Source of the DNA: a virus
Virus record (IMG/VR): IMGVR_UViG_3300006805_000034
Location: 1-57,374 of that record
Strand: one strand, 5' to 3'
DNA: 57,374 bases
The notes under the pieces are model-generated. The model did not search any database. It was not told where the DNA came from and was given only the letters and a program-made list of their open reading frames with translations. Shown piece by piece: positions 5,262-37,928 of this stretch; the first letter of the stretch is position 1, and the number at the start of each line of letters is the position of its first letter. Made by a program: the position numbers and the translations under genes.

Positions 5262-5798
5262 ATGACCCCCTTTTCCAAAAAACTTGATTCTTTATTAGCT
5301 GTCCGTGGGACAGCAGCCAGGCTGGCGGAGTTTTCCGGCGTACCTGCCTCTCATTTGTCCAAGCTGTGCAAGGGGGTACTGCCGACGCCGGAAATGTTGA
5401 ACAAGCTTTTGCCTTTTTTTGAAGCGGCGGATGCGGACGGGCTTGTGGTGGAGTATTTGCTGCTTCACCGCCCAGCAAATGCACGGAATGTGCGTATTTT
5501 GGTGAGTGAAAGTGACCCACTGCAGGACCGCCTGGAAAAAGCGATTGCTTACTTGGACCCGCAAACGAGGGAATCTCTGGCCTGCATTGTCGAAGCAGTG
5601 AATCGTTCTCCTGAAAAGGGATCTGCGGCCATGCGCGGCGTGGGCGGTTTGTTCAATGCCCAAAACACGATGCCGTTGCATCGCAGCCGCATGGAATTGT
5701 TGCCTGCGGTTCTTTCCTCTGAGGACACGAACGCGCCGCCGGTGGCGGAGGTGCGGCAGGAGGTGGTGTATGAGAAGCCTTTACCCAAGAAAAAGTGA
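5262..5798 (+). CDS. XRE-like phage repressor
   Basis: 178 residues from the ATG at 5262 (MTPFSKKLDSLLAVRG); the upstream open frame is AT-rich operator DNA. Residues 5-55 form a helix-turn-helix: TAARLAEFSGVPASHLSKLC with recognition helix SHLSKLCKG, followed by PTPEMLNKLLPFF. The C-terminal half has a helical stretch (LQDRLEKAIAYLDPQTRESL) and a Lys-rich end, with no obvious peptidase dyad of the LexA type. It faces inverted-repeat operators in its own leader, the usual layout for a lysogeny repressor. The next gene starts inside its stop (TGATG). Confidence 0.75.
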   Translation: MTPFSKKLDSLLAVRGTAARLAEFSGVPASHLSKLCKGVLPTPEMLNKLLPFFEAADADGLVVEYLLLHRPANARNVRILVSESDPLQDRLEKAIAYLDPQTRESLACIVEAVNRSPEKGSAAMRGVGGLFNAQNTMPLHRSRMELLPAVLSSEDTNAPPVAEVRQEVVYEKPLPKKK

Positions 5799-6091
5799 TG
5801 AATGACGCTGCTTTGACTTCTCTTGAACCGGAGCCGGCTAAAGCCGGGACTACACTACTGGGAGCCGGAGTGGCGCTGGAGCCTTGGCTGCGGCTGTGCG
5901 CGGGGAATGGGGAGTTGCTGGCGAATTATGATCGGCTGCGGGGCACGAACCTGGGTGGCCGGGGGACGCCCATTGATCGGATGATTGATGAGGCGACGGG
6001 AAAGCTGGAAGAGGAGGCGCTGGGGTTCTTTGACTGGTGCCGGGAGATGTTTGAGCGGCTGCAGTGGGAGGCGGCGGCGGCGGATGGATAG
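5798..6091 (+). CDS. Hypothetical protein with in-frame element A
   Basis: 97 residues, translationally coupled to the repressor (TGATG overlap). Residues about 9-25 (LEPEPAKAGTTLLGAG) are the translation of a family A palindromic element, so the N-terminus has been remodelled by a repeat. The remaining part (ANYDRLRGTNLGGRGTPIDR then MIDEATGKLEEEALGFFDWC) looks like a small conserved phage protein, possibly regulatory. Its stop TAG starts a TAGTCATCCCA motif. Confidence 0.6.
   Translation: MNDAALTSLEPEPAKAGTTLLGAGVALEPWLRLCAGNGELLANYDRLRGTNLGGRGTPIDRMIDEATGKLEEEALGFFDWCREMFERLQWEAAAADG
5827..5869 (+). repeat. Palindromic element A (in frame)
   Basis: CCGGCTAAAGCCGG core with the conserved flank GACTACACTACTGGGAG; translated as EPAKAGTTLL. 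Confidence 0.85.
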
Positions 6092-7173: not shown

Positions 7174-8004
7174 ATGATGATTATGAATACGAACACGAAC
7201 ACCAATACACCCAGCAGAACACAGACAGTGACGATGGAGCGGTCCGGCTTGGGCCGAGACCGAGATTTGAGTCAGAGCCAGAGCCGGAACCAGAGCCCGC
7301 TGCAAGGAGGTGATGGGGACGCTCGACCAGAACCGCCTAAAGGCGGGACTGCACTGCTAGGAACCGGAGGACGGAACACGCTCAAGCGTGAACAACGTAC
7401 GGAGGAAGCGGGCAGGAGTGCTCGCGCTCCTCTCATGCAAGGGCGGGGGAGTTTGCAGCCGAAGTGTCCGGTGGGGGTGATGGAGGGTCGGCTGTGTGGC
7501 TGGGTGGACCTGGGGACGCAGCGGGTGCGCTTTGGCAGTGGTGCTGCTGCCGGCGCTGCTGACGCCGGCGCGGGGAAAGGGCTGCGGAAGGTGATGCTGA
7601 CGTTCTGTGTGCGGGGCGCGGCAGGGGAGTCGTGGCGGGTGAGCCGGGAGTTTACGCTGTCCGGCGGGCCGCGCAGTGCGCTGCGGGCGCTGCTGGAGGC
7701 CTGGCGTGGGCAGCCGTATGCGAGTGATGAGGAGGCGTGGCAGGCGGTGCGCAAGCCACTGCGGGTGCTGGAGCGGCAGGGGCTGGTGAGGATCAGCGAA
7801 CGGGCGGGCAAGGACGGTCGGCTGTGGCCGCAGGTGGAGGGGGTGTGGCCGATGCTGAAGGGAGCGCAGGCGCTGCCGCTGCGCTGGCCACCGGTGTATT
7901 TTACGCTGGAGGCACTGTGCCGGGAGACGTTTCAGGGGCTGCTGCCGTGGGTGCAGGCGAAGGTGCGGGCGAGTGAGGAGTGGGGGAGGTTGGCCGCAAA
8001 GTGA
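7174..8004 (+). CDS. Phage protein with repeat-derived N-terminus (possible replication/recombination factor)
   Basis: Up to 276 residues; ATGs at 7174, 7177 or 7183 are all possible. The first about 90 residues are low complexity (NTNTNTNT, SQSQSRNQS), then elements A, B and D read in frame (PEPPKGGTALLG, NTLKREQRT, GRSARAPL). The true domain starts near GSLQPKCPVGVM and contains RKVMLTF, REFTLS, LRALLEAWRGQPY and a later RISERAGKDGRLWPQVEGV. This resembles a family of phage proteins often near SSB or recombination genes (pattern Y/FTLS...L...WRG). That link is from memory and tentative. Confidence 0.6.
   Translation: MMIMNTNTNTNTPSRTQTVTMERSGLGRDRDLSQSQSRNQSPLQGGDGDARPEPPKGGTALLGTGGRNTLKREQRTEEAGRSARAPLMQGRGSLQPKCPVGVMEGRLCGWVDLGTQRVRFGSGAAAGAADAGAGKGLRKVMLTFCVRGAAGESWRVSREFTLSGGPRSALRALLEAWRGQPYASDEEAWQAVRKPLRVLERQGLVRISERAGKDGRLWPQVEGVWPMLKGAQALPLRWPPVYFTLEALCRETFQGLLPWVQAKVRASEEWGRLAAK
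7277..7437 (+). repeat. In-frame cluster: C-like, A, B and D elements
   Basis: Partial C near 7277-7310, A at 7329-7369, B at 7372-7402 and D at 7408-7437 are tiled head to tail inside the coding region at 7174. Confidence 0.8.
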
Positions 8005-8541: not shown

Positions 8542-8712
8542 CAGAACCGGAACCGCCTGAAGGCGGAACTACACTACGAAGAGCCGGAGGCGGACACGCT
8601 TAAGCGTGAACAACTTACGGGGGACCGGAGCCGGTTAAAAACCGGCGCTCCCAGTGGGGAATCCGGACACGCTGCTGCGAAGCCGCGAAGCGAACCGTGA
8701 ACAACATACGTT
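8542..8712 (+). repeat. Repeat cluster A, B, C, B-long
   Basis: A at 8542-8589, B at 8591-8620, C at 8628-8655 and a longer variant of B with an internal extra hairpin at 8664-8712. These occupy nearly all of the gene-free gap 8514-8710. Confidence 0.85.
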
Positions 8713-9280: not shown

Positions 9281-9354
9281 GGGGGAAGCTTAGGCATGGG
9301 GCGGAAAAGTCAAGGGGAGGACGGAAGCGGTTTTGTAATGGGTGAGTGGGGAGC

Positions 9355-9466
9355 CGGAACACGCTGCTGCGTGAACAACGTGTCGCCGGAACCGCCTGAA
9401 GCCGGGACTGCAATACTTCCGGAACACGCTGAAGCGTGAACAACGTACATTGAACAACGTACGGCG
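9355..9466 (+). repeat. Repeat cluster B, A, B upstream of terminase
   Basis: B with CACGCTGCTGCGTG core (9355-9382), A (9385-9423) and B with a duplicated GAACAACGTAC end (9421-9465). They fill the 230-base gap 9281-9510 together with an ATGCGTTG box at 9472-9479. Confidence 0.85.
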
Positions 9467-9510
9467 TGGACATGCGTTGACGGGGGCTGGGGCTGGGGTG
9501 ACTGCTGGGC

Positions 9511-10290
9511 ATGGCAGACCGAGCCAGTAGAAGACATCCCGAGGCTGCGGCCCGTGGTGCCGGAAAGACTAAACCGACAGTCCGCCGCAAGGCCGCAGTG
9601 AAGACGATGAAGACAGCCACCGGGCGGAAGCCTGACGTGGCTGAAGGTGTGATTAAGAAAGTTGAAGGTTTCAATTTGAAGGTTTCAAGTTCTGGGAAGG
9701 TTGAGGCGGAGGGGATGGGCCGCAAAAAGGCGCAAAACGGCGCAAAAAAGCCGGAGAAGAGAAAGGTGAAGAAACAGACCCGAGTGGAAGAGAAAGAGTG
9801 GCAGGAGTCTGACCCTTTGCCCAATGCGCAGCATGAGATGTTTGCCAAAGCCATGGCTTACGGGGCTTACTCTCAAACGGCGTGCTATTTGATGGCTTAC
9901 GAAGAAGTGGAACGCTCCACGGCACGGGTGAATGCTTCACGATTGCTGACTTATGCTGATGTTTCAGCCCGGATTGAGTGGCTGAAACGGGAGTCGGTGA
10001 AATTGTTTACCGTGAACAAGGCGGAGATCATGCGGGATTTGTATGTGGGCTGGCGCACGCCGGTGGGGCACATTGATCTGGAGAGCCCGCTGGCCCAGGA
10101 GGTGAGCTACGATGCGGAGACGGGAGCGATCACCAAAGTGAAGATGCCCGGCAAGACGGACATGCTCAAAATCCTGCTGCAGATGGAGGGCATTGAAAAG
10201 CCCGCCAATGATCCGCTGGAAAAGGCGGTGGATGCGATGGCGGACATGATCCGCATGATCCGCGAGAAGCGAGGGCCGGAAACGCCATGA
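9511..10290 (+). CDS. terS: Terminase small subunit
   Basis: 259 residues. The functional part begins near residue 100: EMFAKAMAYGAYSQTACYLM then ARVNASRLLTYADVSARIEW, the helix-turn-helix and following helix typical of small terminases that recognise phage DNA for packaging. The C-terminus (EKAVDAMADMIRMIREKRGP) is helical. The basic N-terminus has grown by in-frame insertion of family M (VEGFNLKVSSSGK) and H (GRKKAQNGAKKPEK) elements. The stop overlaps the ATG of the large subunit (ATGA), so the pair is coupled. Confidence 0.85.
   Translation: MADRASRRHPEAAARGAGKTKPTVRRKAAVKTMKTATGRKPDVAEGVIKKVEGFNLKVSSSGKVEAEGMGRKKAQNGAKKPEKRKVKKQTRVEEKEWQESDPLPNAQHEMFAKAMAYGAYSQTACYLMAYEEVERSTARVNASRLLTYADVSARIEWLKRESVKLFTVNKAEIMRDLYVGWRTPVGHIDLESPLAQEVSYDAETGAITKVKMPGKTDMLKILLQMEGIEKPANDPLEKAVDAMADMIRMIREKRGPETP
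9655..9765 (+). repeat. Families M and H inside terS (in frame)
   Basis: M: AAGGTTTCAATTTGAAGGTT type (9660-9700). H: CGCAAAAAGGCGCAAAACGG (9718-9765). Both read without stops in the terS frame. Confidence 0.7.
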
Positions 10291-12047: not shown

Positions 12048-12196
12048 TGGATGCTGGATGCTGGATGCTGGAACCGGAGGTGGACAGGATTGACAGAATT
12101 CCAGCATTTCAGGATTGGGAACGGAGTCGGAGCCGGCTGAAGCCGGGACTACAATACCCGGAAGCCGGAACACGCTGAAGCGTGAACAACGTACGG
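12048..12196 (+). repeat. Repeat cluster K, F, A, B
   Basis: K (GCTGGATGCTGGATGCTGGA, 12048-12071), F (12072-12118), A (12128-12168) and B (12167-12196) fill the gap 12044-12269 after terL. Confidence 0.85.
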
Positions 12197-13796: not shown

Positions 13797-16700
13797 ATGC
13801 CTGCTGATCTGAACTACCTGCTCCAAGCCCGCCGCAATCGCTACGCCCAACCTGCCGGAGGAGCGCGTGCGAGCAGCCCTGAAGACCCTCGGGCTGCGGT
13901 GGAGGAGGAGGCGTTTCAGGCGGAGTCCAAACGGCTGGCGCTGGCGGCGAAGGAGCAGGAGGCAGCGGCTGAAGAGGCGGCCAAGGCCTATGAAAAAGGG
14001 CGCAGGGATGCTGACAAGGAAGCGTTGCGGGCGCGCAACAACGAGATGGAAGCCAAGGCCCGGCGCGAGAAACGGCCGATCTACACGGATGCCGACGGCG
14101 TGATCCAGAGCCAGTACACGGATGACGAGTGGCAGGCACAGAAACAGCGCAAGGCCAAGAATGACCAGTTGCGCACGCGGTATTTCAAGGAGCAGCGCCC
14201 GTGGGTGGAAGATGCCGACGGCAACCTGGTGACGCGGCACACGGATGAGCAGTGGCAGGCGATGCAGGCGGAAAAAGTGGCCAAAGAAAAGGCTAAGGTG
14301 ATCGACGACCAAGCGAAGGACTGGCGCGAGCAGAAGGGCGCGGCGCTGACGGCGGTGGATGACCAGACAGCGCAGGTGATGCGTGGGCTGGATCTGGACG
14401 GGCAGGACCTGGGGCTGAGGCACAAGGCCAAGCTGGACACGGTCAAGAAGGCGAATGCGCAGATCAAGCTGCTGGAGCAGGAGATCGAGAACGGCGAGAC
14501 CGAAGCGGGTCAGATTCTGGATGGAGCGGCGATTGCCAAGCGCACGGCGGCACGCCAGGCGCTGGTGGGGGAGCGTGACAAGGTGCAGGCGGAGGCGGAC
14601 GAGGCGGAGGCCAAGCTGCGGGCGCATGAGGTGCGCAAGCTGGAGTACAGTCGGGCCAACAACGAGGTGCAGGGCTGGCTGCAGAGGGAGAAGCATGGGC
14701 TCAAGACGGCGCTGCCGCCGGTGGTGATGGGGGTGAAGGGGAGGGAAGAACCGGCTAAAGCCGGGACTACACTACCCGGAGGCCGGAACCAGAGCCAGAG
14801 CCCGTTGCAAACTGGCGCTCCCAGCCCGGAAACCGGAGGCCGGAACACGCTGAAGCGTGAACAACGTACGCCGGAGGAGGCGGTGCGCAGGGCGGTGATG
14901 GAGGGGCGGATTTCGGCGCTGGCGGAGGATGATTCTTTGTCGGACGAAGAGAGGGCGGTGAAGCTGACGCGGCTGATGTTGCAGCGGGATGATCCGGCGG
15001 CGTATGAGACGCAGGTGCTGCAGGAGTTTGAAAGTCTGGATCCAGAACAACTCAATGCGACGCTGGACGGGCATTTGCAGGATTTCGAGATGCGCAAGCA
15101 GGACTGGCAGTCGCGCCGGGATGCGCTGCGGGAGCAGACCCAGGCAGTGAATGCCGAGGTGGATGGCGTGCTGGCGCGCAATGCGCAGCGGCTGCAGCAG
15201 CCGCACAAGGCGGCGGACTTGATTGAGTACACCACGGCGGACGGTGGGAAAGTGAGTGTGTTCAAGGATCTGGCGCCGCAACTCGAGCAGGCGCAGGAAA
15301 AGGCGGGCACGTTTGAGAAGCAGAATCAAGCGCAGATGGACCAGATCAACGCCGAGGGCGGGGAACTGGAGCGGGCGGCGAAACTCATTCACGCCGGCGG
15401 AGGTGTGTTCCAAAAAAAGCAGGAAGGGGCCCGCGTGGCCGCCAAGGCTGAACGGCAGAAGGTCTATGAGCAGCTCAATGCCATCCCTGGCGCGAAGCTG
15501 GGCGATGAACTGGCGGCGGTGGATGCCGCGGTGGAAAAGCACCAGGGCGGGGATGATGTGAGCCTGCAGGAGTGGGCGGCGAAGGAGCGGGAGAAGATTG
15601 CGGCGAAGGCGGAAGATGTGCAGAAGAAAGTGGGACCGGCGGTGCAGGAAGCCTATGCGGCGGCCAGTGCCAAGATGCCGGCGGGTGTGGACCTGAACGG
15701 GGAACTGGACCGTGATCCGCTGGGGCTAGAAGGCCCGGCATCCGAGGCAGGAGTGACCAAGCTGCTGGAAAAGATGGGGCTGCCATCGTCGAAAGAGAAC
15801 CGTCAAATGGCGGTCAAGATGCTGCGAGATGCGGCGGTGTTGGACTGGAGTCGAGGAGACACCAGCGCTCCGGTACGTACGGACAGTGCGGGTCGGGTGC
15901 TGGTGAATCCTGAGCGCTGGACGGATGGCGAGGCGTATGCCGAAGCCGTGGCCGGGGCGGGCGCGAGTGAGGCGGAGAAGGCCAAGGCGCTGAAGATGCA
16001 GCCGGAACTCAAGGCGCAGGCGATCAAGCTGAAGCTGGACACGCTGCGGCCGCTGGGGGTGTTTCGCGAGTGGGAAGAGGCCGAGGTGCCACCAACGCGC
16101 GAGGAGAAGATGCAGGCGCGGGCCAATGGCACGCAGGCGGTGCCGCGCAAGCTGCATGAAGGTTTGAGTGATGAGGAGAAACTGAAGCTGTTTGAGAAAG
16201 AAAACAGCGGGGTGTTCAGCACCGGAGCGTGGAAGGTGCGCTGGAATCAGGCCTTGCTTGGGGCCGTGCAGGGAGTGATCGGGCTGGCGCAGAGTGCCAC
16301 GGGGATTGCCGCACCGTTCAGCGATACAGCGCTGGATCTGAATCGGAGGTTTGGCCAGGACGCGGCGCAATTGGGCGCGGCCAGTCAGGCGCTGCCGACC
16401 GGGCAGTGGGTGAATCAAGGAGCGAGCATGCTGGTGAGCAGTGCGCCGTCGCTGGCAGTGGGGGGCGCGGTGGGCGCGGCCACCCGAAGCGAAATGCTGG
16501 CGCTGCAAGGCGCGGCGGCGGGTGCTGGACTGCAAACGTTTGGACAGGTGTACGGCGATGCGGTGCAGGGCTCCATGCAGAACAAGGGCATGACCAAGGA
16601 CGAGGCGCGCCAGGCGGCGCTGGTGCCGGCGCTGGCGAGCGGGGTGTCAACCTATGCGTTGACAGCGGCGGGCGGCACGAACGGCATGGAAAGCGCGCTG

Positions 16701-19700
16701 CGTCAGGAAGGGTTCAAACAAGGGCTGAAGCAATGGCTGACAACGGTGGGCAAGGGCGCGCTGAAGGAAGGCGTGCTGGAAGAGGGGCCGGATCAGTTGA
16801 TTCAGGGCGTGATTGCCCGGCACAGCTATGACCCGACGAAGAGCTGGGCGAGCATTTGGGAAGAGACGGCGACGGCGGTGATCGGCGGGGCGCTGATGGG
16901 TGGGGCGTTTGAGATGATGTCGGGCGGTGGAGGTACGTCTCAAAATGGCAAAGGAATGGAGGAGCAAGGGAATGGGGGAACTGGACAGGCTGTGGGGCCG
17001 GAACCAGTCGTCACCCCAGTGGCGGAAACTGAGCCGGTTGTGGCTCGCCCGGAACCGGCTGAAGCCGGGACTACACTACTGCCGGAAACCGGACCGGACA
17101 CGCTTAAGCGTGAACAACGAACAAAAGAGGCGGAGGCGGAGCTGGCGGGGTTTGCGCCGGAGGGGATGTCGGCGGCTGCGGTGGCGGCCACGAAGGCGAA
17201 GGCGGAGGTGCTGCTGCGCATGGCGCAGGGGGAAACGCTGGCTGATTTTAACGATGAAGAGCTGCGTCAGGTGGGGCTGAATCGAGACGGGACGCCGGGG
17301 CATTATGAGTCGGTGCCGGTGGACAAAAAGAATCCGCAGGCGGGACGCACGAGCGTGTGGAAGAAGGGTGTGCGAGCGGATGGGTTTCAGCCGGTGGTGG
17401 TGGAGGACGGGGAACTGATCATAACGCAGCGTCAGATTGACAACCTGGGCGTGCGGTTGCCGGCGGTGGCGGCGCGGATCGGGAAAAGCGAGGTGGAGCG
17501 GAGGCGAGAGATTGCGGGGAAGGGGGCGCTGATTTCTGGCAAAGGAATGAAGGATCAAGGGAATGCCGGAACCGGAGTGGAGGGCCGCAAAGAAGCGCAA
17601 GAACCGGAGAAAAAAGGGTCAGAGGCCGGAGGTGGACAGGATGGACAGGATTCCAGAATTTCAGGATTGAGGACGGAACTCGCGGCGGCGGCGGCTGCCG
17701 AGTCTAGCCCCGTGGTGGCTAGCCCGGAACCGGCTCAAGCCGGGACTACACTCCTGCCGGAGGACGGAACCGGAGCGGACAGGAGTGTCCGCGCTCCTGT
17801 TGAAGCGGTGGGGTTTGATCCGGCGGTGGAGCGGCGGGTGGATGAGATTGGGGCGGAGCTGGCGGGCCGTGGACTGAGCGGGGAGCAGGCGCTGAGGGCG
17901 GCGCGTGGGGTGGTGGGGCGCATGGGCGTCATGGGGCCGAAGTATGAGGTGCAGATGATCGACCCGGCGTTTGAGGAGGCGATGAAAGCGGAGGGATTTC
18001 AGCGGGATCCGGCCAAGATGTCGCGGTGGATGGCGCGTGGGCAGTTCAAGGCGGAGACGCGGGGGGAAAAGCCGGTGATGCGGAAGGCGGAGGGTGCTAA
18101 GAGTGGACCTGGGGTGGCTAGCCCGGAACCGGCTGAAGCCGGGACTACAATACCCGGAGGCCAGAGCCAGTTGCAAACTGGCGCTCCCAGTACGGAGGCG
18201 GGCAAGAGTGCCCGCGCTCCGCTCATTGAGCGCGGTGACTGGAAGCAGGCGAAGGGGGAAGTGATTGGGGTGATGCAGGGACGTGCGAAGGGGCTGCCGG
18301 AGGCGGGGAAGAAGGCGGCGGGGGACAAGATCAAGGCGGTGGTGAAGCGGTTCAACAAGCTGGAGGAGCTCATTGACACAAAGTTTGGACGTCTGTTTGA
18401 GGGCGTGCGGATTGTGCCGAATGGGAGTTCAGGCGGCGGTGGGCTGGCAGCGCAGGTGACGGGCTACGATGCGCAGGGCCGTGCCACGGGTGTGGAGCTG
18501 GTGGTGGATGCGGCGACGTTTGCGGAAGCGGGCGGCGTGACGGATTCTGAACTCGAGCGTGCGCTGAATGAGGAGTGGCAGCACCGCGCGGACCTGATGG
18601 TGATGAGCCGGAGCGAGGCTATTGCTTTGGCGCGGGACATTCATGCGGCGCAGCCGGGGGTGTTTAACTCGGCGTGGAAGCAGTACTTTGCGGTGTATAT
18701 CAACGCGGGAAGCAAGCCAGCCAAGCCGCCGGTGGAACTGACCGATGACGAGGCTTACATGATGTATTTTGAGGCCAGCCGCATGATCCGCCAAGGGACG
18801 TTCACCAGTGAGAATGCGGCGATTCGTGACGTGGGGCTGCTGCAACGCATGTACCTGATGCTGAGCCGGTACGTGAATTTTGTGAAGCGCGAGATGAAGA
18901 AGCTGCCGCAGGATCTGCGCGAGCTGTGGGAGGACAAGCTGACAGCAGCGGAAGCGGTGATGCGCAAGACGAAGGAGGCGGGGATTCGGTTGCAGAAGGA
19001 AGGCTTGGATGACGTGGAGCCGCCGGAGGGATTGCCGCAAAAAGGCGCAAAAACTCGCAAAAAAGAGGAAGTTAATGAGGATGAGGAAGCCATGGCGATG
19101 GCGGCGGATGCTGAGATGGATGTGCGGCCCGAGCGGAAGGGGGCGCTGCGGAATCCGGGTGAGAATGCAATTCGGGGCATGGCGGCCATTCCTGACCCGG
19201 ACAACGGCAAGGAAAACGTGGTGGTGTGGATCAATCGCTACCATGGACGCATCACGCGGCCGTCCAAGGGCTGGCTGGAACGCATGGCGCAGGACGGCAA
19301 GGACCGCTCAAAAATTGGCGACTGGGATGACATTCGGCAGGCGGAGATCCCGAGCTTTTATGCGGGGCTGGTGTTCAAGAACGGCAACGGCAGCACGCTG
19401 GACCAAGCACTGCAGGAGCTGCATGGCCTGGGGTATTTCCCCGGCGTGGCCGCTGAGGATGTGACCGGCGAGATGCTGGCCCGCAAGATCAAGGACGTGA
19501 TCCAACGCTACCAGGGCAAGAAGCAGGGCGGCGCCACAACGGTGCAGGATGAGGAGCAGGCGCATTTTGAGCGGATGGAGAAGCAGCGGGTGGAGTTTGA
19601 GCGCAGCACGTCCAAGGGGCCGATCTACGTCAAGCCGCATGAGATGCAGCCCGGTGACGTGATGATGGTGAAGGCCGATGATGGCAAGATGCACCGAGTG

Positions 19701-21494
19701 GAGGTGCTGCGACTGGACAGTGAGCCTGTGGCTGCGGGTGACGAGTTTGATCCGGATGCGAATCCGGCGCAGTTCATGGGCCCGGATGGGCCGATGGAGA
19801 TCCGGAGTGTGACGCTCAGGGACGGCACGACGTTTGGCGTGCAGACGATCGACGGTCAGCAGGGGCTGTACGTGGATGCCTTCAGCGTGCGCCAGGAAGG
19901 CGACTTTTACGCCGGGCTGAGCGATGCGGTGCAGAATCGCACGATCGACGATGCGGACGCGGTGCTGCGGGTGATGCAGCACGAGGGCATGGATGCCACG
20001 ACGCCGTTTTCGCAGATCGTGCTGGCGATTCAGCAGAACCTGCGGGTGCCGATGCGGCGCGCGCAGAAGATGCTGGCGCAGGTGATGGACACAGATGCCA
20101 ACGCCACGGTGTGGACGAATGGAGAACTCAAGGAAGCGCTGGAGAGTCCGCTGGGGAGTCCTAAGAAACAGGCTGGGCCGGGATTGTTTGGGGAGGATGA
20201 GATGAACTTTCTGGGGGACCGGAACACGCTGGGGCTGTTTGAGCAGGCAGGGCGTAAAGAAGCGCAGGTTTCTGGCAAAGGAATGAAGGAGCAAGGGAAT
20301 GCCGGAACCGGAGTGGGGACCACGGATGGCACGACTAGAACGGATCAGAAGACGAAGGCCGGCGGTGGACAGGATTTACAGAATTCCATCATTACAGGAT
20401 TGCCGAAAAGCGCTGAACGACCCAGTTTTGCGCAGGTGCGTGATGCGATTGTGGCACAGACCCCGGAGAAACGAGGCTTGTCAGTGGATGATTACATTGA
20501 TGACAATTTGGAGCGGACTTATCCGGCTCCTGGAACTCGATTTAAAGTCAATGGTAAGACCTACCATTGGACCATCACCCCAGGAACCAAGCTGCGTGGC
20601 AGCAGCATGGCTTTCAGCAATCCGTGGATGAGTGTTTTTGAAGGGGAGCGCAATTTCTTGGTCAAAATTCCTTTTGCCCCCGAACTCACGGCGTCACATC
20701 TGCGCAAAGCAGTGAGGGCAATTCACGAGGATGCTTATCCCGCCAAAGAGTTCACCCTGGAAGCGAGCACGGCGCAGGAGCTCAAGGCCGAGGCGGAGAG
20801 GAAGGTGCTGCGGGAGAATCTGCTGGCGCGGGCGGAGAAGCCGCTGGTGGGGACGCTGGGGGACATCGGGCAGACGCAGATGTTTGGGGGCGGGGATTTG
20901 TTTGCGCAGCCGAAGAAAACAACCGATACTCAAAACCAAGATGCACCAGCTACCTCCGGAAGTTTGGAACCAGATCGCCCGCGAGGCACCGCTGGCGACA
21001 CCGGCCGCACGCGCGGCCTTCAACCTGCCGCCCCAGAAGCAGGAGGCAATGCTCAACCAGTGGGCCCAGAGCGAGCAGAAAGCCAAGACGCCGGCGTGGG
21101 CGGTGGTGCCACTGCAGGAGGTGCTGCCCCTGCTGGCGGAACAGCCGGCGCTGAGCCAGTTCAAGGACAAGCATCCCGAGTTCCTGGACGCCCTGCCCGA
21201 GGTGAACAGCCCGCAGGAGGCGGCGCAATTGATGAGCCGAGAGCGGCAGTGGAGTCCGGCGCAGAGCTCGACCTTTCTCCAGTTGCTCCAGAGCGGCCAG
21301 CCGTTGACACGGTGGCAGCAGAGCGCGAGGTTACTGCACGCGACCGCCAGCTAGAGCAGGCCAAAGTTCAGGTAGAACCCAAAGAATGGGATCGGATGAA
21401 AGTGGCTGATGAGAGAGAGCATCGCCAAGAGTTTGCCGATGCTGCTGCCGCAGCAGCAGGACGATGTGCTGAAAACGGAGCGCCGCTTTTTTGA
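13797..21494 (+). CDS. Giant virion/ejection polyvalent protein, N-terminal partner
   Basis: 2,565 residues. Regions: QARRN N-terminus; charged coiled coils (30-310 and 360-620); Ala/Gly-rich membrane-type segments (about 810-925) resembling membrane-active regions of phage ejection proteins; a helical domain (1480-1750); and a conserved-looking domain PSKGWLERMAQDGKDRSKIG to LGYFPGV (about 1815-1900) like those in phage polyvalent proteins. Seven clusters of palindromic elements read in frame (near 317-360, 1050-1109, 1247-1292, 1310-1336, 1442-1478, 1747-1757 and 2152-2202). From 20941 to about 21330 the frame is Ala/Gly/Pro-rich and overlaps another gene. The end (VQVEPKEWDRMKVADERE) seems to continue into the next ORF after a shift at 21411. 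A role in the virion and in ejection is inferred. Confidence 0.75.
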   Translation: MPADLNYLLQARRNRYAQPAGGARASSPEDPRAAVEEEAFQAESKRLALAAKEQEAAAEEAAKAYEKGRRDADKEALRARNNEMEAKARREKRPIYTDADGVIQSQYTDDEWQAQKQRKAKNDQLRTRYFKEQRPWVEDADGNLVTRHTDEQWQAMQAEKVAKEKAKVIDDQAKDWREQKGAALTAVDDQTAQVMRGLDLDGQDLGLRHKAKLDTVKKANAQIKLLEQEIENGETEAGQILDGAAIAKRTAARQALVGERDKVQAEADEAEAKLRAHEVRKLEYSRANNEVQGWLQREKHGLKTALPPVVMGVKGREEPAKAGTTLPGGRNQSQSPLQTGAPSPETGGRNTLKREQRTPEEAVRRAVMEGRISALAEDDSLSDEERAVKLTRLMLQRDDPAAYETQVLQEFESLDPEQLNATLDGHLQDFEMRKQDWQSRRDALREQTQAVNAEVDGVLARNAQRLQQPHKAADLIEYTTADGGKVSVFKDLAPQLEQAQEKAGTFEKQNQAQMDQINAEGGELERAAKLIHAGGGVFQKKQEGARVAAKAERQKVYEQLNAIPGAKLGDELAAVDAAVEKHQGGDDVSLQEWAAKEREKIAAKAEDVQKKVGPAVQEAYAAASAKMPAGVDLNGELDRDPLGLEGPASEAGVTKLLEKMGLPSSKENRQMAVKMLRDAAVLDWSRGDTSAPVRTDSAGRVLVNPERWTDGEAYAEAVAGAGASEAEKAKALKMQPELKAQAIKLKLDTLRPLGVFREWEEAEVPPTREEKMQARANGTQAVPRKLHEGLSDEEKLKLFEKENSGVFSTGAWKVRWNQALLGAVQGVIGLAQSATGIAAPFSDTALDLNRRFGQDAAQLGAASQALPTGQWVNQGASMLVSSAPSLAVGGAVGAATRSEMLALQGAAAGAGLQTFGQVYGDAVQGSMQNKGMTKDEARQAALVPALASGVSTYALTAAGGTNGMESALRQEGFKQGLKQWLTTVGKGALKEGVLEEGPDQLIQGVIARHSYDPTKSWASIWEETATAVIGGALMGGAFEMMSGGGGTSQNGKGMEEQGNGGTGQAVGPEPVVTPVAETEPVVARPEPAEAGTTLLPETGPDTLKREQRTKEAEAELAGFAPEGMSAAAVAATKAKAEVLLRMAQGETLADFNDEELRQVGLNRDGTPGHYESVPVDKKNPQAGRTSVWKKGVRADGFQPVVVEDGELIITQRQIDNLGVRLPAVAARIGKSEVERRREIAGKGALISGKGMKDQGNAGTGVEGRKEAQEPEKKGSEAGGGQDGQDSRISGLRTELAAAAAAESSPVVASPEPAQAGTTLLPEDGTGADRSVRAPVEAVGFDPAVERRVDEIGAELAGRGLSGEQALRAARGVVGRMGVMGPKYEVQMIDPAFEEAMKAEGFQRDPAKMSRWMARGQFKAETRGEKPVMRKAEGAKSGPGVASPEPAEAGTTIPGGQSQLQTGAPSTEAGKSARAPLIERGDWKQAKGEVIGVMQGRAKGLPEAGKKAAGDKIKAVVKRFNKLEELIDTKFGRLFEGVRIVPNGSSGGGGLAAQVTGYDAQGRATGVELVVDAATFAEAGGVTDSELERALNEEWQHRADLMVMSRSEAIALARDIHAAQPGVFNSAWKQYFAVYINAGSKPAKPPVELTDDEAYMMYFEASRMIRQGTFTSENAAIRDVGLLQRMYLMLSRYVNFVKREMKKLPQDLRELWEDKLTAAEAVMRKTKEAGIRLQKEGLDDVEPPEGLPQKGAKTRKKEEVNEDEEAMAMAADAEMDVRPERKGALRNPGENAIRGMAAIPDPDNGKENVVVWINRYHGRITRPSKGWLERMAQDGKDRSKIGDWDDIRQAEIPSFYAGLVFKNGNGSTLDQALQELHGLGYFPGVAAEDVTGEMLARKIKDVIQRYQGKKQGGATTVQDEEQAHFERMEKQRVEFERSTSKGPIYVKPHEMQPGDVMMVKADDGKMHRVEVLRLDSEPVAAGDEFDPDANPAQFMGPDGPMEIRSVTLRDGTTFGVQTIDGQQGLYVDAFSVRQEGDFYAGLSDAVQNRTIDDADAVLRVMQHEGMDATTPFSQIVLAIQQNLRVPMRRAQKMLAQVMDTDANATVWTNGELKEALESPLGSPKKQAGPGLFGEDEMNFLGDRNTLGLFEQAGRKEAQVSGKGMKEQGNAGTGVGTTDGTTRTDQKTKAGGGQDLQNSIITGLPKSAERPSFAQVRDAIVAQTPEKRGLSVDDYIDDNLERTYPAPGTRFKVNGKTYHWTITPGTKLRGSSMAFSNPWMSVFEGERNFLVKIPFAPELTASHLRKAVRAIHEDAYPAKEFTLEASTAQELKAEAERKVLRENLLARAEKPLVGTLGDIGQTQMFGGGDLFAQPKKTTDTQNQDAPATSGSLEPDRPRGTAGDTGRTRGLQPAAPEAGGNAQPVGPERAESQDAGVGGGATAGGAAPAGGTAGAEPVQGQASRVPGRPARGEQPAGGGAIDEPRAAVESGAELDLSPVAPERPAVDTVAAEREVTARDRQLEQAKVQVEPKEWDRMKVADEREHRQEFADAAAAAAGRCAENGAPLF
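14745..14870 (+). repeat. In-frame cluster A, C, B
   Basis: A (EEPAKAGTTLPGG), C (LQTGAPSPE) and B (NTLKREQRT) in a row inside the giant ORF. Confidence 0.9.
16947..17122 (+). repeat. In-frame cluster E, A, B
   Basis: E (GKGMEEQGNGGTG), A at 17049-17085 (PEPAEAGTTLLPE) and B at 17097-17122 (DTLKREQRT), following the membrane-type segment. Confidence 0.9.
17537..17668 (+). repeat. In-frame cluster E, H, F
   Basis: E (SGKGMKDQGNAGTG), H (GRKEAQEPEKKG) and F (GGGQDGQDSRISG). Confidence 0.9.
17723..17803 (+). repeat. In-frame cluster A, D
   Basis: A (PEPAQAGTTLLPE) and D with core GCGGACAGGAGTGTCCGC (ADRSVRAP). D keeps a perfect stem despite base changes relative to other copies. Confidence 0.9.
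18121..18228 (+). repeat. In-frame cluster A, C, D
   Basis: A (PEPAEAGTTIPGG), C (LQTGAPSTE) and D (AGKSARAPL). Confidence 0.9.
19034..19065 (+). repeat. In-frame H element
   Basis: CGCAAAAAGGCGCAAAAACT, translated PQKGAKTRKKEE, before an acidic stretch. Confidence 0.75.
20250..20402 (+). repeat. In-frame cluster H, E, F
   Basis: H-like (GRKEAQ), E (SGKGMKEQGNAGTG) and F (GGGQDLQNSIITG), the same order as at 17537 apart from E and H being swapped. Confidence 0.85.
20941..21354 (+). CDS. Gene nested in the giant ORF, alternative frame
   Basis: 137 residues in frame +1 relative to the giant ORF (MHQLPPEVWNQIAREAPLAT onward; later LSQFKDKHPEFLDALPEV and RWQQSARLLHATAS). The translation has a normal globular composition with GC-rich third codon positions. 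The overlapping giant-ORF frame is a Gly/Ala/Pro/Arg-rich linker here, so the nested frame is probably the selected one. It ends at TAG 21352-21354. No strong ribosome-binding site is seen. Family not recognised. Confidence 0.55.
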   Translation: MHQLPPEVWNQIAREAPLATPAARAAFNLPPQKQEAMLNQWAQSEQKAKTPAWAVVPLQEVLPLLAEQPALSQFKDKHPEFLDALPEVNSPQEAAQLMSRERQWSPAQSSTFLQLLQSGQPLTRWQQSARLLHATAS

Positions 21495-24400
21495 GCAGAC
21501 ACCCACGGAAACCGACCCGAAAAGAGGGGTGATGTTTACCAACGGCACGGGCACGGGCAAAACCTTTACCGGGCTGGGCATCATCAAACGGTTTGAGATG
21601 ATGGGCAAAGGCCGCGTATTGATCGTGGTGCCGAGCCAGCAGAAAGTCACCGACTGGAAGAACGAAGGCGCGCGGGTGATGGTCAAGGTGAACCCGCTGA
21701 ACGACACCAATGACGTGGGAGAGGATGTGGTGGCGACGACCTACGCCAATCTGCGCGACAACTGGAAGCTTCAAAGCGAGCCGTGGGACCTGGTGGTGTA
21801 CGATGAAAGCCACTACCTTTCCAGCAATGCCCAGGGCAACGAAGGAGCCAACATACGCGCGCATGAACTGGCCACTAACAAGCCCGGATGGAACCAGATG
21901 GAGAAATGGACGCAGGCAGTGCTGGGACCGCGCCCCAGTCGCCGGGAAGATGAAGCCGCAGCCAAGCGCTACGACAACGCCGCCGAGCAGGCCAGCAAGC
22001 AGATTCAGTACCTAGCCGACACCGCCCCGGACACCAAGGCCGTGTTTTTGAGCGCGACGCCTTTCGCGTATCACAAAAACCTCAAATACGCCGACGGCTT
22101 TCTTTACTCGGCCCCGCCGCGCTCGGACAGCAGCGCCTACAACACGCCGCAGGGCTTTGAGCGCTATTTGGTGGAGAATTTTGGGTACACGATGCGGACC
22201 AACCGCCTCAACTCGCCACCGCCTGAAGTGGACACGGGATTGATGGAACGCGAGTGGGCGGAGCGCCAGTTTCAGCAGGGCAGCATGAGCGGACGCATGA
22301 TTGACGTGCCGTATGATTACAGCCGTGAATTTGTGCTGCTGAACTCGGAAACGGGCCGCCTGCTGGATGAAGGATTCCGCAGTTTGTCGGGATGGGACCC
22401 CGACACGCGGGACCGCTGGCCGGAGCTGACAAGTGCCTTCAACAGCTACTGGCGCAGCAGCAGCAGCGGGTACACAAAGATGATGCAGTTCATGGAGTCC
22501 ATCAAAGTGGCGGACGCCATTGAGCGCATGCAGCAGCACCTTGACATGGGGCGCAAGATTGTGCTGTTCCATTCCTACAACAACGCCGATCCGCTGCACC
22601 CGTTCCAGTTGAGCTATCTGGCACCGGCTTACCGCAATGATCCTGCCGAGCAGATCGGGGAACGGCAGATGCTGGAGCAGCAGACCCGCGACTGGATGTC
22701 GGCGCACCCCAAACTGGTGCAGATGAATTTCCGACGTTTGCAAAATCCTCGTGCCCTAGTGGCGCAGGAGTTTGGGGACCGGGTGAAATTCTTCAACGGG
22801 GAAGTGGGCAAGAAAGACCGCGCAGCGGCGATCACGCAGTTTAACGACGACAACAGCGGCGTGGACATCTTCATGGTGCAGACCGATGCCGGCAAGGAAG
22901 GTATCAGCCTGCATGATACCACGGGCAAAAAGCAGCGCGTGCTGATGAACGCCAGCCTGCCGGTGAAACCGACTGATGCCATCCAGGAGGAAGGGCGCAT
23001 TTACCGCATCGGCGTGCTTTCGAATGCCATCCAGGAGTATCTGGTGCTGCACACCAACATGGAGCGCAGCGCCTTCGGCAGCAAGATCAGCCAGCGCACG
23101 GGCACCGTGGAAAACATGGCCTTAGGCCAGATGGCGCGCACGCTGACGGATTCCTTTAAATCCGGCTATCTGAACGCGCACGGCGAAGATCCGAGCCGGG
23201 AGCAGGGGCTTGGCGGCAAGGAGCAGGACAAGGCCGAGCTGCTGGGGGACGACTTCACCCGCGCCAAATCCTATTACTTTGGACGCATGAAGAAAACCAG
23301 CCGCAACAAGGCGGCTGAAGGGCAGGACTATTTTGCCACCCCGGAGCCGCTGGGGCTGGTGATGGTGCGCATGCTGGGAGCCAAGCCGGGCATGGACCTG
23401 CTGGAGCCGAGTGCCGGGCACGGAGCCATTGGGCGGTGGTTTCCTGACACCACGGCCAACAAGTTCATCGAGCCGAGTCGTACGCTGGCGGATGAACTGC
23501 GCATCAAGGTGGCGTCTGGGAAGGTGGAAGTGCAGCCTTTCGAGGATCTGCACATCATGAACAAATTCGACGGCGTGGCGATGAACCCGCCGTTTGGCAC
23601 GGCGGGCAAGCTGGCCATTGAGCACCTGGCCAAGGCCAGCAGGCACCTGCGCCAGGGCGGGCGCATGGTGGCCATCATTCCCGAAGGGCCGGCGATGCAG
23701 AAGCGCTTTGATGCCTGGCTGGAGGGCGAAGGGGCTGACATGCACCTGCGCGCATCCTACGGGTTGCCGACAGTAACATTTGAACGGGCGGGCACGAGCG
23801 TGAAAACGCGGTTGGTGGTGCTGGATAAAGCCGACCTGTGGACGGTGAGGCATGAGCCTGAAACAGGGACGTATGCCGCCTATGACAGTTTTGGCGAAAA
23901 GCGCCGGTCATACAAAGGTGGGGAGAAAACGTTGCGGGATCTGGCGGAAACCAATCCTGAGTTTATTGGCTGGCAGGATCAGGCGAATTTCCAAAATCGC
24001 AGCCCCCGCGAGATTGAGGCCGAGAACGTGAAGGAATTCTTTGACGAGATCGAGAACCTTGAAGCACCGCCGCGCATCGTCAAAACGGTGGCGACGGGGG
24101 CTTTGGATTCGGAAACTACATGGACGCCGCCTTATCCAGGTGCGCCCAATCCCAGCATTGCCGAGGCAATGCAAAACATGCAGCAGCAAAACCAAAGAGT
24201 GCCGAGCATGGCCCCTGCGGCACCCGTAGTCACCCCAGCCGCCGCTGCTTCCAATCCTTACGAGTCCGCGCAGACGCTGCACGCGAAAAAGGGCGTGATG
24301 ACCTACGTGGCCAAGATGTCGCGCCGCTTGAGTGATGCCACCTACCAGAGCGAGAAGAACCGCGCCAAGAAGTTTGGCGGGTACTACTCCGCCTTCAAAG

Positions 24401-27400
24401 GCAGCGGAGCCATTCCAGGATTCCAGTTTGAAAGTGCTGACAAACGCGATGCGTTCGTGGGTGGGTACACAGAGTCGGCACCTTTGAGCAGCCCGAGGAA
24501 GCAGATGCCGATTTTGAAGACGATTGAGAAGGTGCAGGAGTGGTCTCAAGCGGAGAACAAGAAAGAGGTGCTGGATCAACTGCCGGAGGATTTGCAGGCG
24601 AAGATCGAAGCGGATGAGCGCTGGCAGTGGCTGGAGAAGCATGATGCGAGCGAGGAGTTTGCGCCGTGGTATCCAGAGCCCTACCGGACGGCAAGTCGGG
24701 TGTATGCCGACCTTTCAGCGCGTCAGGCGGCAGATGAAGAGCTGACGGCCGCTGAAGACAAGGCGATGGACAAGGCGCATGACAAGCTGCTGGCCTGGGA
24801 GATGGCCGGCGGCCCGTGGAATCATGTGCTGGCGACGTATGAGCCGGAGATTGAGGCGCGGATGAAAGAAGTGATTGCGCAGATTGAGGCGACGGGGCGC
24901 TGGGAATGGGACAAGCGGGAGAGGGCGTTTGTGGCGACGGATGAGGACAATGAGCAGGTGCTGTACAGTCCGAGGAAGCAGGGGGGTGCCAAGACGGAGA
25001 AAGAAGTGTTTGATCACCGGCTGGCGGTGGCAAAGGCGGAGATTGAGAAGGACATGAGCGAGGGCGTGGTGCCGCGTGGAGTGCGTTCTTTTGCGGAACT
25101 GCATGACTCGGTGGATGCCAATGAGTACGTGAATGACAAGGAGCGGCCCGACCGGATGATTGGCCCGATGGGCACGGCGCAGGGCTGGCGTGCTCAGGAG
25201 TATGTGAATTTTACCAATAAGTTGATTGAGGCGCTGGATGAGTGGCTGAAACAAGGGGGTGCGGCCGGAAGCCAGAACACGCTAAAGCGTGAACAACGTA
25301 CGGGGATTGATGAGGCGGCGCATGAGGCGGCGACGTCGCCGAGGAATGATTTGGCGGAGCCGACGGCGGCGCAGAAGGAGGCGGGGAATTATGCCATGGG
25401 GCATGCTGTCATTGGTGGGCATGAGATTTCGATTGAGAATCCGGCGGGGTCGAGGCGCAGGCCGGAGTGGCCGGTGCTGAGGGATCACTATGGGTACCTG
25501 AAGGGCACGAAGGGGCAGGACGGGGACCAGGTGGACTTGTTTGTGAAGCCGGGGACGCCGGCGGACTATGCGGGGCCGGTGCATGTGGTGCGGCAGAATG
25601 TGGTGGAGGGGGGAGATGATGCTGGATCCTTGATGCTGGATGCTGGATCCAGAACCGGAGCCGGAGCGGGCAAGAGTGCCCGCGCTCCACTGAGGGCGAC
25701 GGGGAAGCTGGATGAGTACAAGGTGATGCTGGGGTATCCGACGGCGGCGGAGGCGCGGGCGGCGTATCTGCGCAACTACACGCCCGGCTGGCCGGGGCTG
25801 GCGAAGCTGACGACGCACACGATGCCGGAGTTTGAGGTGATCAAGCGGAGCGTGTTTGGCGGCGATGCGGGGGCGAGGGCGACGGACAAGGCGCTTGCGA
25901 GCGCCCAGAAGCAGGGGCAGGGTGGAGGCATGGCCAATCCCGACAAGGCCGATCAATCTCAAGCCATCCAACCCGCTTTGTTTGCCCGGCTCAAGGGTTC
26001 AAAGACGTTGTATCCTGTTCGTGACTTGGATGATGTGGCCAAAAAAGCCTCATGGATGAAGGTGAGATACCAATCCCGCCCGATAGTCGAGATTGTGACC
26101 AGCGATGGGATTGTGCGAGGGGTGAGTGATGAACAAGGTGTTATTCGTGAACCGAATGGCACCGTGATCTGGAACCCGTTTGATGATGAAAATACCGACC
26201 TGCTGGCGGCACCCCGCAAGCAGGGGAAGGCGCTGGAGATGATGGCGAAGGCGGACTGGGGGCGGATTGACAAGGCTCTTACGGGGCGGCTGGCGCAGGC
26301 GGTGACGGATGCGGCGCAGTGGATCAAGAAGCAGGCGCTGCCGGGTGAGGCGCAGGTGAACCCCGTGGATGCGGCGCTGGAGCTGCTGGCGGGGTGGAGG
26401 GTGGAAGGGCAGGCGGCTATGGGCGGGGTGAAACTGAAGCCAGACCAGAGGCAGGAGCTCATGGCTCAGACCCGGCGGCAGATGCGCCGGGCGTGGAACT
26501 ATGCGCAGCGGCAACTGGTGCCGGATGCCTCCCTGCCGGCGGATGTGCTGGCCAAAAAGCGCGAGATGACGATGAACCAGGGGCTGAGCAATGAGGTGGC
26601 GCTGGACATCGGCAAACGGGCGCTGGCGGGCAAACCGAAGCTGTCCGACCTGGTGGTGGGTGAGGCGCAGCAGAATCCAGAGATCCGGCGCAAGATGTTC
26701 CTGGCGATGAACCCGCGAATTGACAGCGGAGTGACGATGGACAGCCTCAATCCCGAAGAGCGGCGGGTGGCGGAGGCTTTACTGAAGCTGCGCGACGACC
26801 TGGGAAAACGCATGGTGAAGGCGGGACGGATCGGACTGCAGACGTATGAAGCGATGCGGGAGGGCACGAGCCACTACTATGACCATGACGTGAAGCGGGA
26901 GAAATCCCTGCTGCGGCAGATGAGTCTGGGGCTGCGCAACTTGTTTGCCCAGACGGCCACGGCGTATCACATCGTGGACACGCAGACGAAGCAGCCGGAT
27001 GGCAGTCCGGCGCTGGTGATGCACCCTGGAAGCCGGAACCGGCCGACGTATCGCTTTGAGACGCAGGAGCAGATGCGCGGGTGGTACGAGGAGTTCATCA
27101 AGGACCAGATTTTGCAGGCGGCGGAGAAGGGCAACGCCGGGCGCTACCCGTGGATGACGCAGGCGGACAAGGCGGCGCTGATGGGCGTGACGCGGGACAG
27201 CCTGAACAATCCGGGCCGGATGAGCGCCGAGCAGCGCGCGGTGGTGTCGCGCCTGCAGGAGCAGCTCCGGGCCCGCTTTGAGAAGCGGATGCCGCTGAGC
27301 TACGACGAGCACAGCAAGGCGGGGCTGATTGAAGACCCGTTTTACTCGGTGGCCCGACAGATCGCCGAGATGGGGCATGACGTGGCGACTGCGGAGTTTT

Positions 27401-29232: not shown

Positions 29233-29267
29233 GGGGACGCTGGGCCGAGTGGAGCGAATCAGTTTGG

Positions 29268-29292
29268 CAAAGGAATGAAGGAGCAAAGGAAT
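29268..29292 (+). repeat. E element
   Basis: Family E copy between the giant ORF and the next gene; the ATG at 29298 follows within 6 bases. Confidence 0.8.
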
Positions 29293-29297
29293 AACCC

Positions 29298-29735
29298 ATG
29301 ACTCAAAAGACTCAAAGCTTCGCCATCGGAACTCGTTGCCGTCGCAAGAATCCGTTTATTCTATATCACTGGTCGCCACGGTGCAGGAGGGAATCAATCC
29401 TGCGCAACGGGCTTGTTGTTGGCAGTAAACACGCAATTCACTCAAATGGCTGGAGAGCTACCTATCTCTGCTTCTCGGACAGTCCTTCGTTTGGGTGGGC
29501 TTATAGCGCCGACACCAGCAAAACAAAAGGCGAATGGGACCTGTGGATGGTTTGGAGTACTGGGCTGAGCAGTCTATTTTACCGCTCTGATCATCATGGC
29601 CAGATGCCAGCCGAATACCGAACCAAGCACAACGTTGCCAAGAAGAATCTTTGGCTTGTGGGTTCTAGATCAAGGGCGAAGGGGAAGGGGAAGGGGAAGG
29701 GCCGAGCGGCGCGAATCCATTTGGCAAAGGAATGA
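29298..29735 (+). CDS. Possible ADP-ribosyltransferase-like small protein
   Basis: 145 residues. The opening ILYHWSPRCRRESILRNGLV matches the start of small ART or Tpt1/KptA-like folds (LYH...S...ILR.GL, the NAD-contacting His and following helix). It continues with TYLCFSDSPSFGWAYS and a Tyr/Trp-rich C-terminal half. Base composition is lower in GC than the flanks. The Lys/Gly tail (SRAKGKGKGKGRAARIHLAK) and stop come from a GGGAAG hexamer tract and a family E element. Function is tentative: modifying host protein or nucleic acid, or a toxin-like factor. Confidence 0.5.
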   Translation: MTQKTQSFAIGTRCRRKNPFILYHWSPRCRRESILRNGLVVGSKHAIHSNGWRATYLCFSDSPSFGWAYSADTSKTKGEWDLWMVWSTGLSSLFYRSDHHGQMPAEYRTKHNVAKKNLWLVGSRSRAKGKGKGKGRAARIHLAKE

Positions 29736-29750
29736 AGGAGCAAGGGAATG
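29678..29750 (+). repeat. GGGAAG hexamer tract and E element
   Basis: About four GGGGAA units (29678-29701), then E (29719-29750), which provides the TGA stop of the upstream gene. Confidence 0.8.
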
Positions 29751-29756
29751 GACGGA

Positions 29757-29912
29757 ACCGGAGGTGGACAGGATTGACGAGGCGATTCTCGTCCTCGCCC
29801 TGCGGGCTCCTTGCAGTCGTCTGTCTCGCTACCGCTCGGCTCACAGAATTACAGCATTTCAGGATTGGGGATGGAGCCGGAGACGGACACGCTGAAGCGT
29901 GAACAACGTACG
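29757..29912 (+). repeat. F element split by about 65 bases, then B element
   Basis: The left half of F (GGACAGGATTGAC) ends at 29778 and the right half (AGAATTACAGCATTTCAGG) resumes at 29845. Between them is a separate sequence rich in CTCG. B follows at 29884-29912. Part of the gap 29736-29949, where I see no gene. Confidence 0.75.
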
Positions 29913-29913
29913 G

Positions 29914-36546: not shown

Positions 36547-36939
36547 ATGAAATTCCAGATTGATCCTTCGCAGTTTGAAATGCCGGTGTCGCTGGCGACT
36601 TCCATTGTTGGGGCGGGATTGAGCGCGTTGGGACTCGTTGCGGCGACGCTGGCGGGATGGTGGGCAAAGTTTGCGACGATCGACCCGCAGGAGCTGGCGA
36701 TTCAGCCGCTGCATGTGGTGCTGATTGGTTTTATCATTGCCCTGGCGGCGTTCATTGTGCTGATTCTGCGGGCGGTGTGGGGCAAGGGCATTGAGACGGT
36801 GAACCGCTTCAGTGATGCGCTGAACAATCAGGCGGCGCAGATAGCGCAATTGATCGAGCTGCAGACGAAGCGGGTGGAGAAATTGGAGACGCTGAGTTTT
36901 GACGCGCTGAGGGAGGCGGCGGAAACCAGAACACGCTGA
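36547..36939 (+). CDS. Holin candidate (two-TM protein with cytoplasmic helix)
   Basis: 130 residues. Two hydrophobic helices (about 15-40, LATSIVGAGLSALGLVAATL; about 57-77, VVLIGFIIALAAFIVLILRA) are followed by a charged helix (LIELQTKRVEKLETLSFDAL). It precedes an endolysin and esterase, the expected position for a holin. The last residues ETRTR and the TGA are supplied by a family B element, so the C-terminus has been altered. Confidence 0.6.
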   Translation: MKFQIDPSQFEMPVSLATSIVGAGLSALGLVAATLAGWWAKFATIDPQELAIQPLHVVLIGFIIALAAFIVLILRAVWGKGIETVNRFSDALNNQAAQIAQLIELQTKRVEKLETLSFDALREAAETRTR

Positions 36940-37000
36940 AGCGTGAACAACAAACCCGGAACCGGAACCGCCTGAAGGCGGGACTACAATACGAAGAGAC
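36929..37000 (+). repeat. B and A elements; B supplies a stop
   Basis: B (36929-36954, read ACA-CGC-TGA) ends the holin candidate. A with core CCGCCTGAAGGCGG follows (36959-37000) and abuts the next start. Confidence 0.85.
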
Positions 37001-37008
37001 TGAAACTT

Positions 37009-37209
37009 ATGAAACGGACTTGCTACATTGCGATCAATATGATTCGGACGAATCCGGGGGAAGCGGATGGGTGGACGGATCGGTTTGTGACGTTGATCAA
37101 CACGCGGCTGCCTGATGGGGTGGTGAAGGACCACAGTGATGATGCGCAGGGGCATTCGACCTGGCTGCAGCGTGGGGTGCGGTTTGAGGGGCTGATGCAG
37201 GCTATTTAA
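37009..37209 (+). pseudogene. Internally deleted copy of the hydrolase at 37929
   Basis: 66 residues. The N-terminus MKRTCYIAINMIRTNPGEAD with GWTDRFVTLIN and the C-terminus VVKDHSDDAQGHSTWLQRG match the two ends of the 226-residue hydrolase downstream. The central about 160 residues, including the GHSNG nucleophile, are missing while the frame is kept. It cannot be a working esterase. It may be a remnant or a small derived protein. Confidence 0.7.
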
Positions 37210-37238
37210 AAACATGATCAGGAGGACCAGCAGACTTT

Positions 37239-37784: not shown

Positions 37785-37786
37785 AC

Positions 37787-37923: not shown

Positions 37924-37928
37924 AACTT

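Follow-up and report, generated by a model that had tools for sequence, protein, structure and literature searches.

The DNA analysed here is a virus record of 57,374 bases (the window), along the full length of which the repeat elements were mapped. It carries two giant open reading frames on its plus strand, ORF 1 and ORF 2, which are fused into a single ORF of 4545 aa in a relative, G002 (IMGVR 3300032315_001592), a 61.9-kb virus record with mostly 80-90% DNA identity to the window (82-88% in summary). The split in the window is a frame change at about 21409-21494, near a GCTGCTGCCGCAGCAGCAG stretch, and is either genuine or an artefact of assembly. ORF 1 has no Pfam or PHROG match, and it is from the matches of ORF 2 to helicase, methyltransferase, InPase and DarB-like families that the gene is predicted to encode a giant polyvalent protein, with ORF 1 as its N-terminal part. 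No relatives of ORF 1 were found among the searched genome contigs or annotated phages, and so no element-free homologue is known; a search for relatives of window positions 31423-33768 returned only G002, and the DNA of the first repeat cluster in ORF 1 had no match among annotated phages and plasmids. Given an integrase match at positions 36-827 (phrog_1, 6.5e-21), the phage may be temperate.

Seven repeat families (A, B, C, D, E, F and H), with 57-59 copies in all, are present in the window, and every copy lies in the plus orientation. Our profile search counted 59 copies, namely 15 A, 13 B, 8 E, 6 F, 6 C, 6 H and 5 D, while the letter-reversed window, searched as a control with the same models at a slightly stricter cut-off, gave zero matches. 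An unguided comparison of the window with itself returned 392 same-strand pairs vs 3 opposite-strand pairs. G002 holds 27 or 28 copies, uniform in orientation and oriented as in the window. The order of elements within clusters is loosely kept: E, F, H, A, C/B, D. The genes and elements are as follows:

5830-5858, plus strand: A in the small ORF 5798-6091 (PEPAKAGTTLL)
7330-7437, plus strand: A-B-D in frame in gene 7174-8004 (EPPKGGTALL, RNTLKREQRTE, AGRSARAPLM)
8549-8659, plus strand: A-B-C, intergenic
9350-9447, plus strand: B-A-B, intergenic
9718-9737, plus strand: F in frame in the small-terminase gene (GRKKAQN)
12079-12196, plus strand: H-A-B, intergenic
13797-21494, plus strand: giant ORF 1, 2565 aa, predicted N-terminal part of the polyvalent protein
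14748-14870, plus strand: cluster 1, A (EPAKAGTTLP), C (SPLQTGAPS) and B (NTLKREQRT); E-A in G002
16946-17122, plus strand: cluster 2, E (NGKGMEEQGNG), A (PEPAEAGTTLL) and B (DTLKREQRT); E-A-C in G002
17535-17798, plus strand: cluster 3, E, F, H, A and D; A only in G002
18125-18227, plus strand: cluster 4, A (EPAEAGTTIP), C (SQLQTGAPS) and D (GKSARAPLI); E-A-C in G002
19034-19053, plus strand: short, weak F-like copy in a different frame (LPQKGAKT)
20271-20402, plus strand: cluster 5, E (SGKGMKEQGNA) and H (GGQDLQNSIITGL); common to G002, shorter there
21409-29232, plus strand: giant ORF 2, 2607 aa, helicase, methyltransferase, InPase and DarB-like matches
25274-25303, plus strand: B in frame in ORF 2 (QNTLKREQRTG)
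25668-25691, plus strand: D in frame in ORF 2 (AGKSARAPL)
29263-29913, plus strand: E, E, H and B, downstream of the giant ORFs
37789-37923, plus strand: A and C, intergenic
42749-43053, plus strand: A-C-B plus A, in frame in gene 42462-43181
44221-44342, plus strand: A-C-B, intergenic
55567-57333, minus strand: C5-type DNA methyltransferase gene, conserved in G002
55587-55613, plus strand: B at the 3' end of the minus-strand methyltransferase gene; E here in G002
56594-56618, plus strand: A inside the minus-strand methyltransferase gene (VVPPSGG); also in G002

A and B are short tagged palindromes of 14 nt, the tag being GTAG or GTTG (A, GTAGTCCCGGCTTCAGCCGG; B, GTTGTTCACGCTTCAGCGTG, GTTG variant). 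C and D are also palindromes, with CGCTCC rather than GTAG following them, and E, F and H are imperfect short direct repeats that do not form palindromic hairpins. A first-pass annotation, made from the sequence of the window alone, had described palindromic or short repeats in seven clusters inside the giant ORF. All seven clusters do hold the named elements within ORF 1 (13797-21494), and the reversed window is free of matches, but the palindromic description applies to A, B, C and D and not to E, F and H; moreover, the elements also occur in other genes and between genes throughout the window, and the one-strand rule had been missed. The giant gene, which the annotation had placed among those for virion proteins, is read here as that of a polyvalent protein that may or may not belong to the virion. 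Two features of the surrounding sequence may be mentioned here. A minus-strand gene at 1503-2375 with a DUF7694 match (7e-27) adjoins an E copy in the plus orientation, and at 36911-38042 two related stretches (ACTTATGAAACGG...) follow the A/B and A/C clusters, which suggests a local duplication.

In plus-strand genes each of the families A to E is read as one peptide: EPAEAGTT-like for A, NTLKREQRT for B, SQLQTGAPS for C, GKSARAPL for D and GKGMKEQGN for E. A single frame per family is used across ORF 1, ORF 2 and the genes 5798-6091, 7174-8004 and 42462-43181, even though, judged by eye, two frames are open in A, one in B, three in C, three in D and two in E. The vocabulary of peptides given in the first-pass annotation (EPAEAGTT, NTLKREQRT, LQTGAPS, GKSARAPL, GKGMKEQGN and GGQD) reads as it had claimed, and the peptides are fixed for A to E but not for F, which is short, weak and without a fixed frame, its copy at 19034 reading LPQKGAKT. 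The constant frame of A holds in the plus-strand genes of the window; of its two alternatives, said to contain stops or to differ, one has a stop and the other is open but unused. The other open frame of A is used in a host gene, where it reads DRLKAGLQY. By our own estimate, which assumes independent sites and equally likely frames, single-frame use throughout would arise by chance roughly 1 in 100,000 times, a figure that is too strong, related sites being among those counted.

Alignment of ORF 1 between the window and G002 places the element peptides in variable linkers between well-conserved blocks, and the two proteins differ at the same linkers, the first containing A-C-B in the window vs E-A in G002 and the third E-F-H-A-D vs A. 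The four main clusters of ORF 1 differ in length between the two by 30, 72, 72 and 156 nt, each value being divisible by three; intergenic length differences are often not multiples of three, and the intergenic region 9340-9470 measures 131 nt in the window vs 16 nt in G002. In gene 42462-43181, A-C-B in the window is matched by A-B in G002, and the in-frame difference of 51 nt is the C unit missing from the latter. The peptide readings, the ORF 1 alignment and the multiple-of-three gaps together bear out the earlier claim that several families stand in frame in one gene.

Outside the virus, 68 genomes were searched from the family to which the 7.0-Mb Verrucomicrobiaceae MAG G001 belongs; B (<=1 mismatch) occurs in 31/68 and exact A in 25/68. 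The search of the element cores against chromosomes and related phages, which the first-pass annotation had proposed, thus found matches in both, in the Verrucomicrobiaceae and in G002. In these bacterial chromosomes A and B are dispersed, multi-copy and mainly intergenic, and inverted A and B pairs occur, separated by a few tens of bp. The 57 kb of the window hold 9 exact A cores vs 24 in the 7.0 Mb of G001, so that the phage is about 45 times denser. E (<=2 mismatches) is present in only 6/240 genomes of the order (G001, G036, G037, G040, G049 and G050), all of which also carry A, and exact E was found in no viral record besides the window and G002. The phage host is probably a member of the Verrucomicrobiaceae, and the confinement of E to this clade of six genomes, all with A, together with its absence from other viral records, points to the clade as the putative host, as judged from the distribution of the elements.

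Rickettsia palindromic elements (RPEs) are mobile repeats that are inserted in frame in protein genes and add peptides to variable regions. The resemblance to RPEs (PMC3733652) that the first-pass annotation had drawn stands as a good functional parallel, since here too there is in-frame insertion in protein genes, with a homologue differing at the same site, and peptides are added to variable regions; but the setting is a phage of other bacteria, several families are involved at once, and the likeness is one of function, so that A is not classed as an RPE here. A better fit for A and B is the GTAG-type REP element: GTAG-tagged REPs have been described in PVC bacteria, including the verrucomicrobial Opitutus terrae, and in-frame copies inside ORFs have already been published (PMC3733652). 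Like these, A and B are tagged palindromes, dispersed, in hosts partly arranged as inverted dimers and sometimes in frame in ORFs, whereas the phage copies are almost never inverted dimers, are far denser, comprise several families and keep to one replication strand. C and D are probably also of REP type. The inverted A and B pairs in hosts and the Y1 transposase genes in the family also recall REPINs and their RAYTs (PMC3116915, PMC8266576, PMC6006769). REP singlets have been regarded as immobile remnants of REPINs (PMC3116915); unlike REPINs, the phages carry nearly only singlets, and these have been gained or lost between relatives. In kind the elements are familiar, namely small host repeats of REP type and others; what is unusual is that they lie in phages, and how they are arranged there.

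Orientation was compared with local GC skew, computed with the elements masked, for the A and B copies of 21 viral records (n=113). The window and G002 add little to this comparison, since their skew has one sign throughout. Orientation agreed with the sign of the skew for 106/113 copies vs 64/113 for gene direction, and the 54 cases in which the two disagree fell 48 to 6 in favour of the skew, with the qualification that copies within one viral record are not independent; both copies of record G251 are among the seven exceptions. In G244 and G245 the 11 and 9 copies are all minus, the genes are almost all plus and the skew is negative, and in G258 three plus copies have neighbouring genes on the minus strand and a positive skew. 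In G242 a flip of orientation, minus to plus, lies between 17203 and 18201 and coincides with the cumulative GC skew minimum, genes being mostly plus on both sides, and in G243, G249 and G254 the orientation likewise flips near the skew turn. These four are viral records of about 35 kb in which the sign of the skew changes within runs of genes mostly in the same direction; that A/B orientation changes with it is as expected of an origin or terminus of replication. Terminase, portal, head, tail or primase genes are carried by G244, G248 and G242.

The same rule is seen in chromosomes. In the host clade and in related genomes, 54/59 A/B singletons follow the skew, and in a second genome set 26/32 do so (p = 5e-4; 24/32 at 10 kb), the majority taken per locus being weaker (17/24, p = 0.06 at 10 kb). 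E follows the skew in 22/27 host copies. The hosts have no gene bias, A being co-oriented with the gene in 6 and anti-oriented in 4 of the copies within genes, and the copies between genes numbering 11 in ++ and 13 in -- arrangement. In 18/19 genomes rpoC is encoded on the G-rich strand, which was for that reason taken as the leading strand and presumably is.

Taking these results together, we regard as reasonably probable an account in which host-chromosome repeats inserted into the phage through single-stranded DNA in step with replication, and selection kept the harmless in-frame copies. The repeats would be small non-autonomous elements of the bacterial chromosome that enter the phage genome repeatedly; their insertion would be coupled to DNA replication, on single-stranded DNA, and the replication strand would set the orientation of each copy regardless of the direction of the gene at the target. 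Insertion of this kind would explain why each skew segment has a single orientation, why genes have no influence on it, and why phage and chromosome obey a common rule. Within genes, a copy would survive only if it left the reading frame intact and contributed a hydrophilic stretch that does no harm, and such a filter could leave one fixed peptide per family in the variable linkers of the polyvalent protein and of a few other proteins. The linkers, we infer, put up with the copies but make no use of them. The fixed peptides are most simply explained if in-frame copies in linkers are the ones that survive.

The perfect orientation, and the retention of elements at the same linkers in two phages, could also be expected if the repeats were polar sites useful to the phage, for packaging, segregation or transcript ends, with their orientation kept by selection. 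KOPS and Chi are polar skewed motifs of this sort in bacteria. However, the rule is common to seven unrelated families, the contents turn over fast between relatives, and single chromosomal copies obey the rule too, all of which makes selected sites unlikely. It is rather improbable that the peptides are positively selected linker modules, shuffled between phage genes by recombination, with the DNA repeats as a by-product: the single frame per family across genes, the C unit gained or lost between A and B and the mostly constant cluster order would be explained, but many copies are intergenic and lie on one strand there as well, and the same elements are intergenic in chromosomes. That inverted copies were purged because they cause inversions in the phage genome, leaving one orientation, could account for an inverted neighbour within 100 bp being found for 2/113 viral vs 32/91 host copies, and is nevertheless very improbable, since both orientations coexist in G242, G243, G249 and G254, split near the skew turn, and chromosomal singletons follow the skew. 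Finally, the notion that orientation follows transcription, either because insertion or survival needs co-orientation with the gene or because the elements spread through RNA, draws on the mostly plus-strand genes and all-plus elements of the window, but is hardly tenable and largely refuted already: gene direction as the rule is rejected by the plus-oriented A and B in the minus-strand methyltransferase gene, by the elements of G244 and G258 that oppose their genes, by the unbiased host counts and by the 48 to 6 split of discordant cases. This methyltransferase gene also has a long variable middle part and is cut at the window end, its G002 version being about 750 aa.

Under replication-coupled insertion, the inserting agent would be either a host Y1 transposase of the RAYT/TnpA_REP-like type or single-strand annealing at the fork. 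Y1 transposases of RAYT type (TnpA_REP) act on single-stranded tagged hairpins (PMC8266576), and IS200/IS605 elements transpose strand-specifically through single-stranded DNA, inserting at the lagging-strand template (PMC6006769). The phage elements share with the latter an orientation dependent on the replication strand, but are without a transposase, and the polarity of the tagged strand is opposite to a simple IS608 analogy (PMC6006769): the GTAG strand is the C-rich strand, the reverse of what directly copying IS608 lagging-strand-template insertion would give. This polarity would fit if the element were joined to the nascent lagging strand and not inserted into the template. E, F and H are not palindromic, so that the families need not all be mobilised by a single enzyme, and these three may move by another route.

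What looks new is the density of the repeats in phages, together with the orientation rule; a literature search, with most subscription journals outside its scope, found no description of REP-loaded phages or of a replication-strand rule for single REPs. The nearest published precedent among the literature found is a remark on P. fluorescens SBW25, whose tandem REP arrays point forward around 2 Mb and in reverse around 4 Mb (PMC3116915). REP movement has so far been inferred from biochemistry and genome comparison, and phages with tens of copies pointing the same way amount to a dense natural archive of the polarity of insertion. The link between orientation and GC skew, seen in both phage and chromosome, makes replication-coupled single-strand insertion directly testable, and it questions the view of single REPs as dead remnants. 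Host repeats, meanwhile, supply a giant phage protein with new coding linkers. More tentatively, and with somewhat less than even confidence, we suggest that single REP-type elements are themselves mobile units in Verrucomicrobiaceae, entering phage and chromosome via single-stranded DNA at the fork. If that is true, the orientation of elements in phage genomes records the direction of replication, and insertions create new in-frame protein linkers.

Y1_Tnp genes are present in 67/68 genomes of the family of G001. Among 30 loci sampled from the 54 in G001, G036 and G049, none had A or B beside it, which weighs against the replication-coupled account and differs from the GTAG-tagged REPs described earlier (PMC3733652). 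A cognate RAYT gene flanked by the element is common in GTAG-type REPs, not universal. Four of the Y1_Tnp loci (L207, L209, L211 and L214) are flanked by other tagged palindromes, e.g. GCAACCGGGACGGTTGCACTAC, and look like REPtrons.
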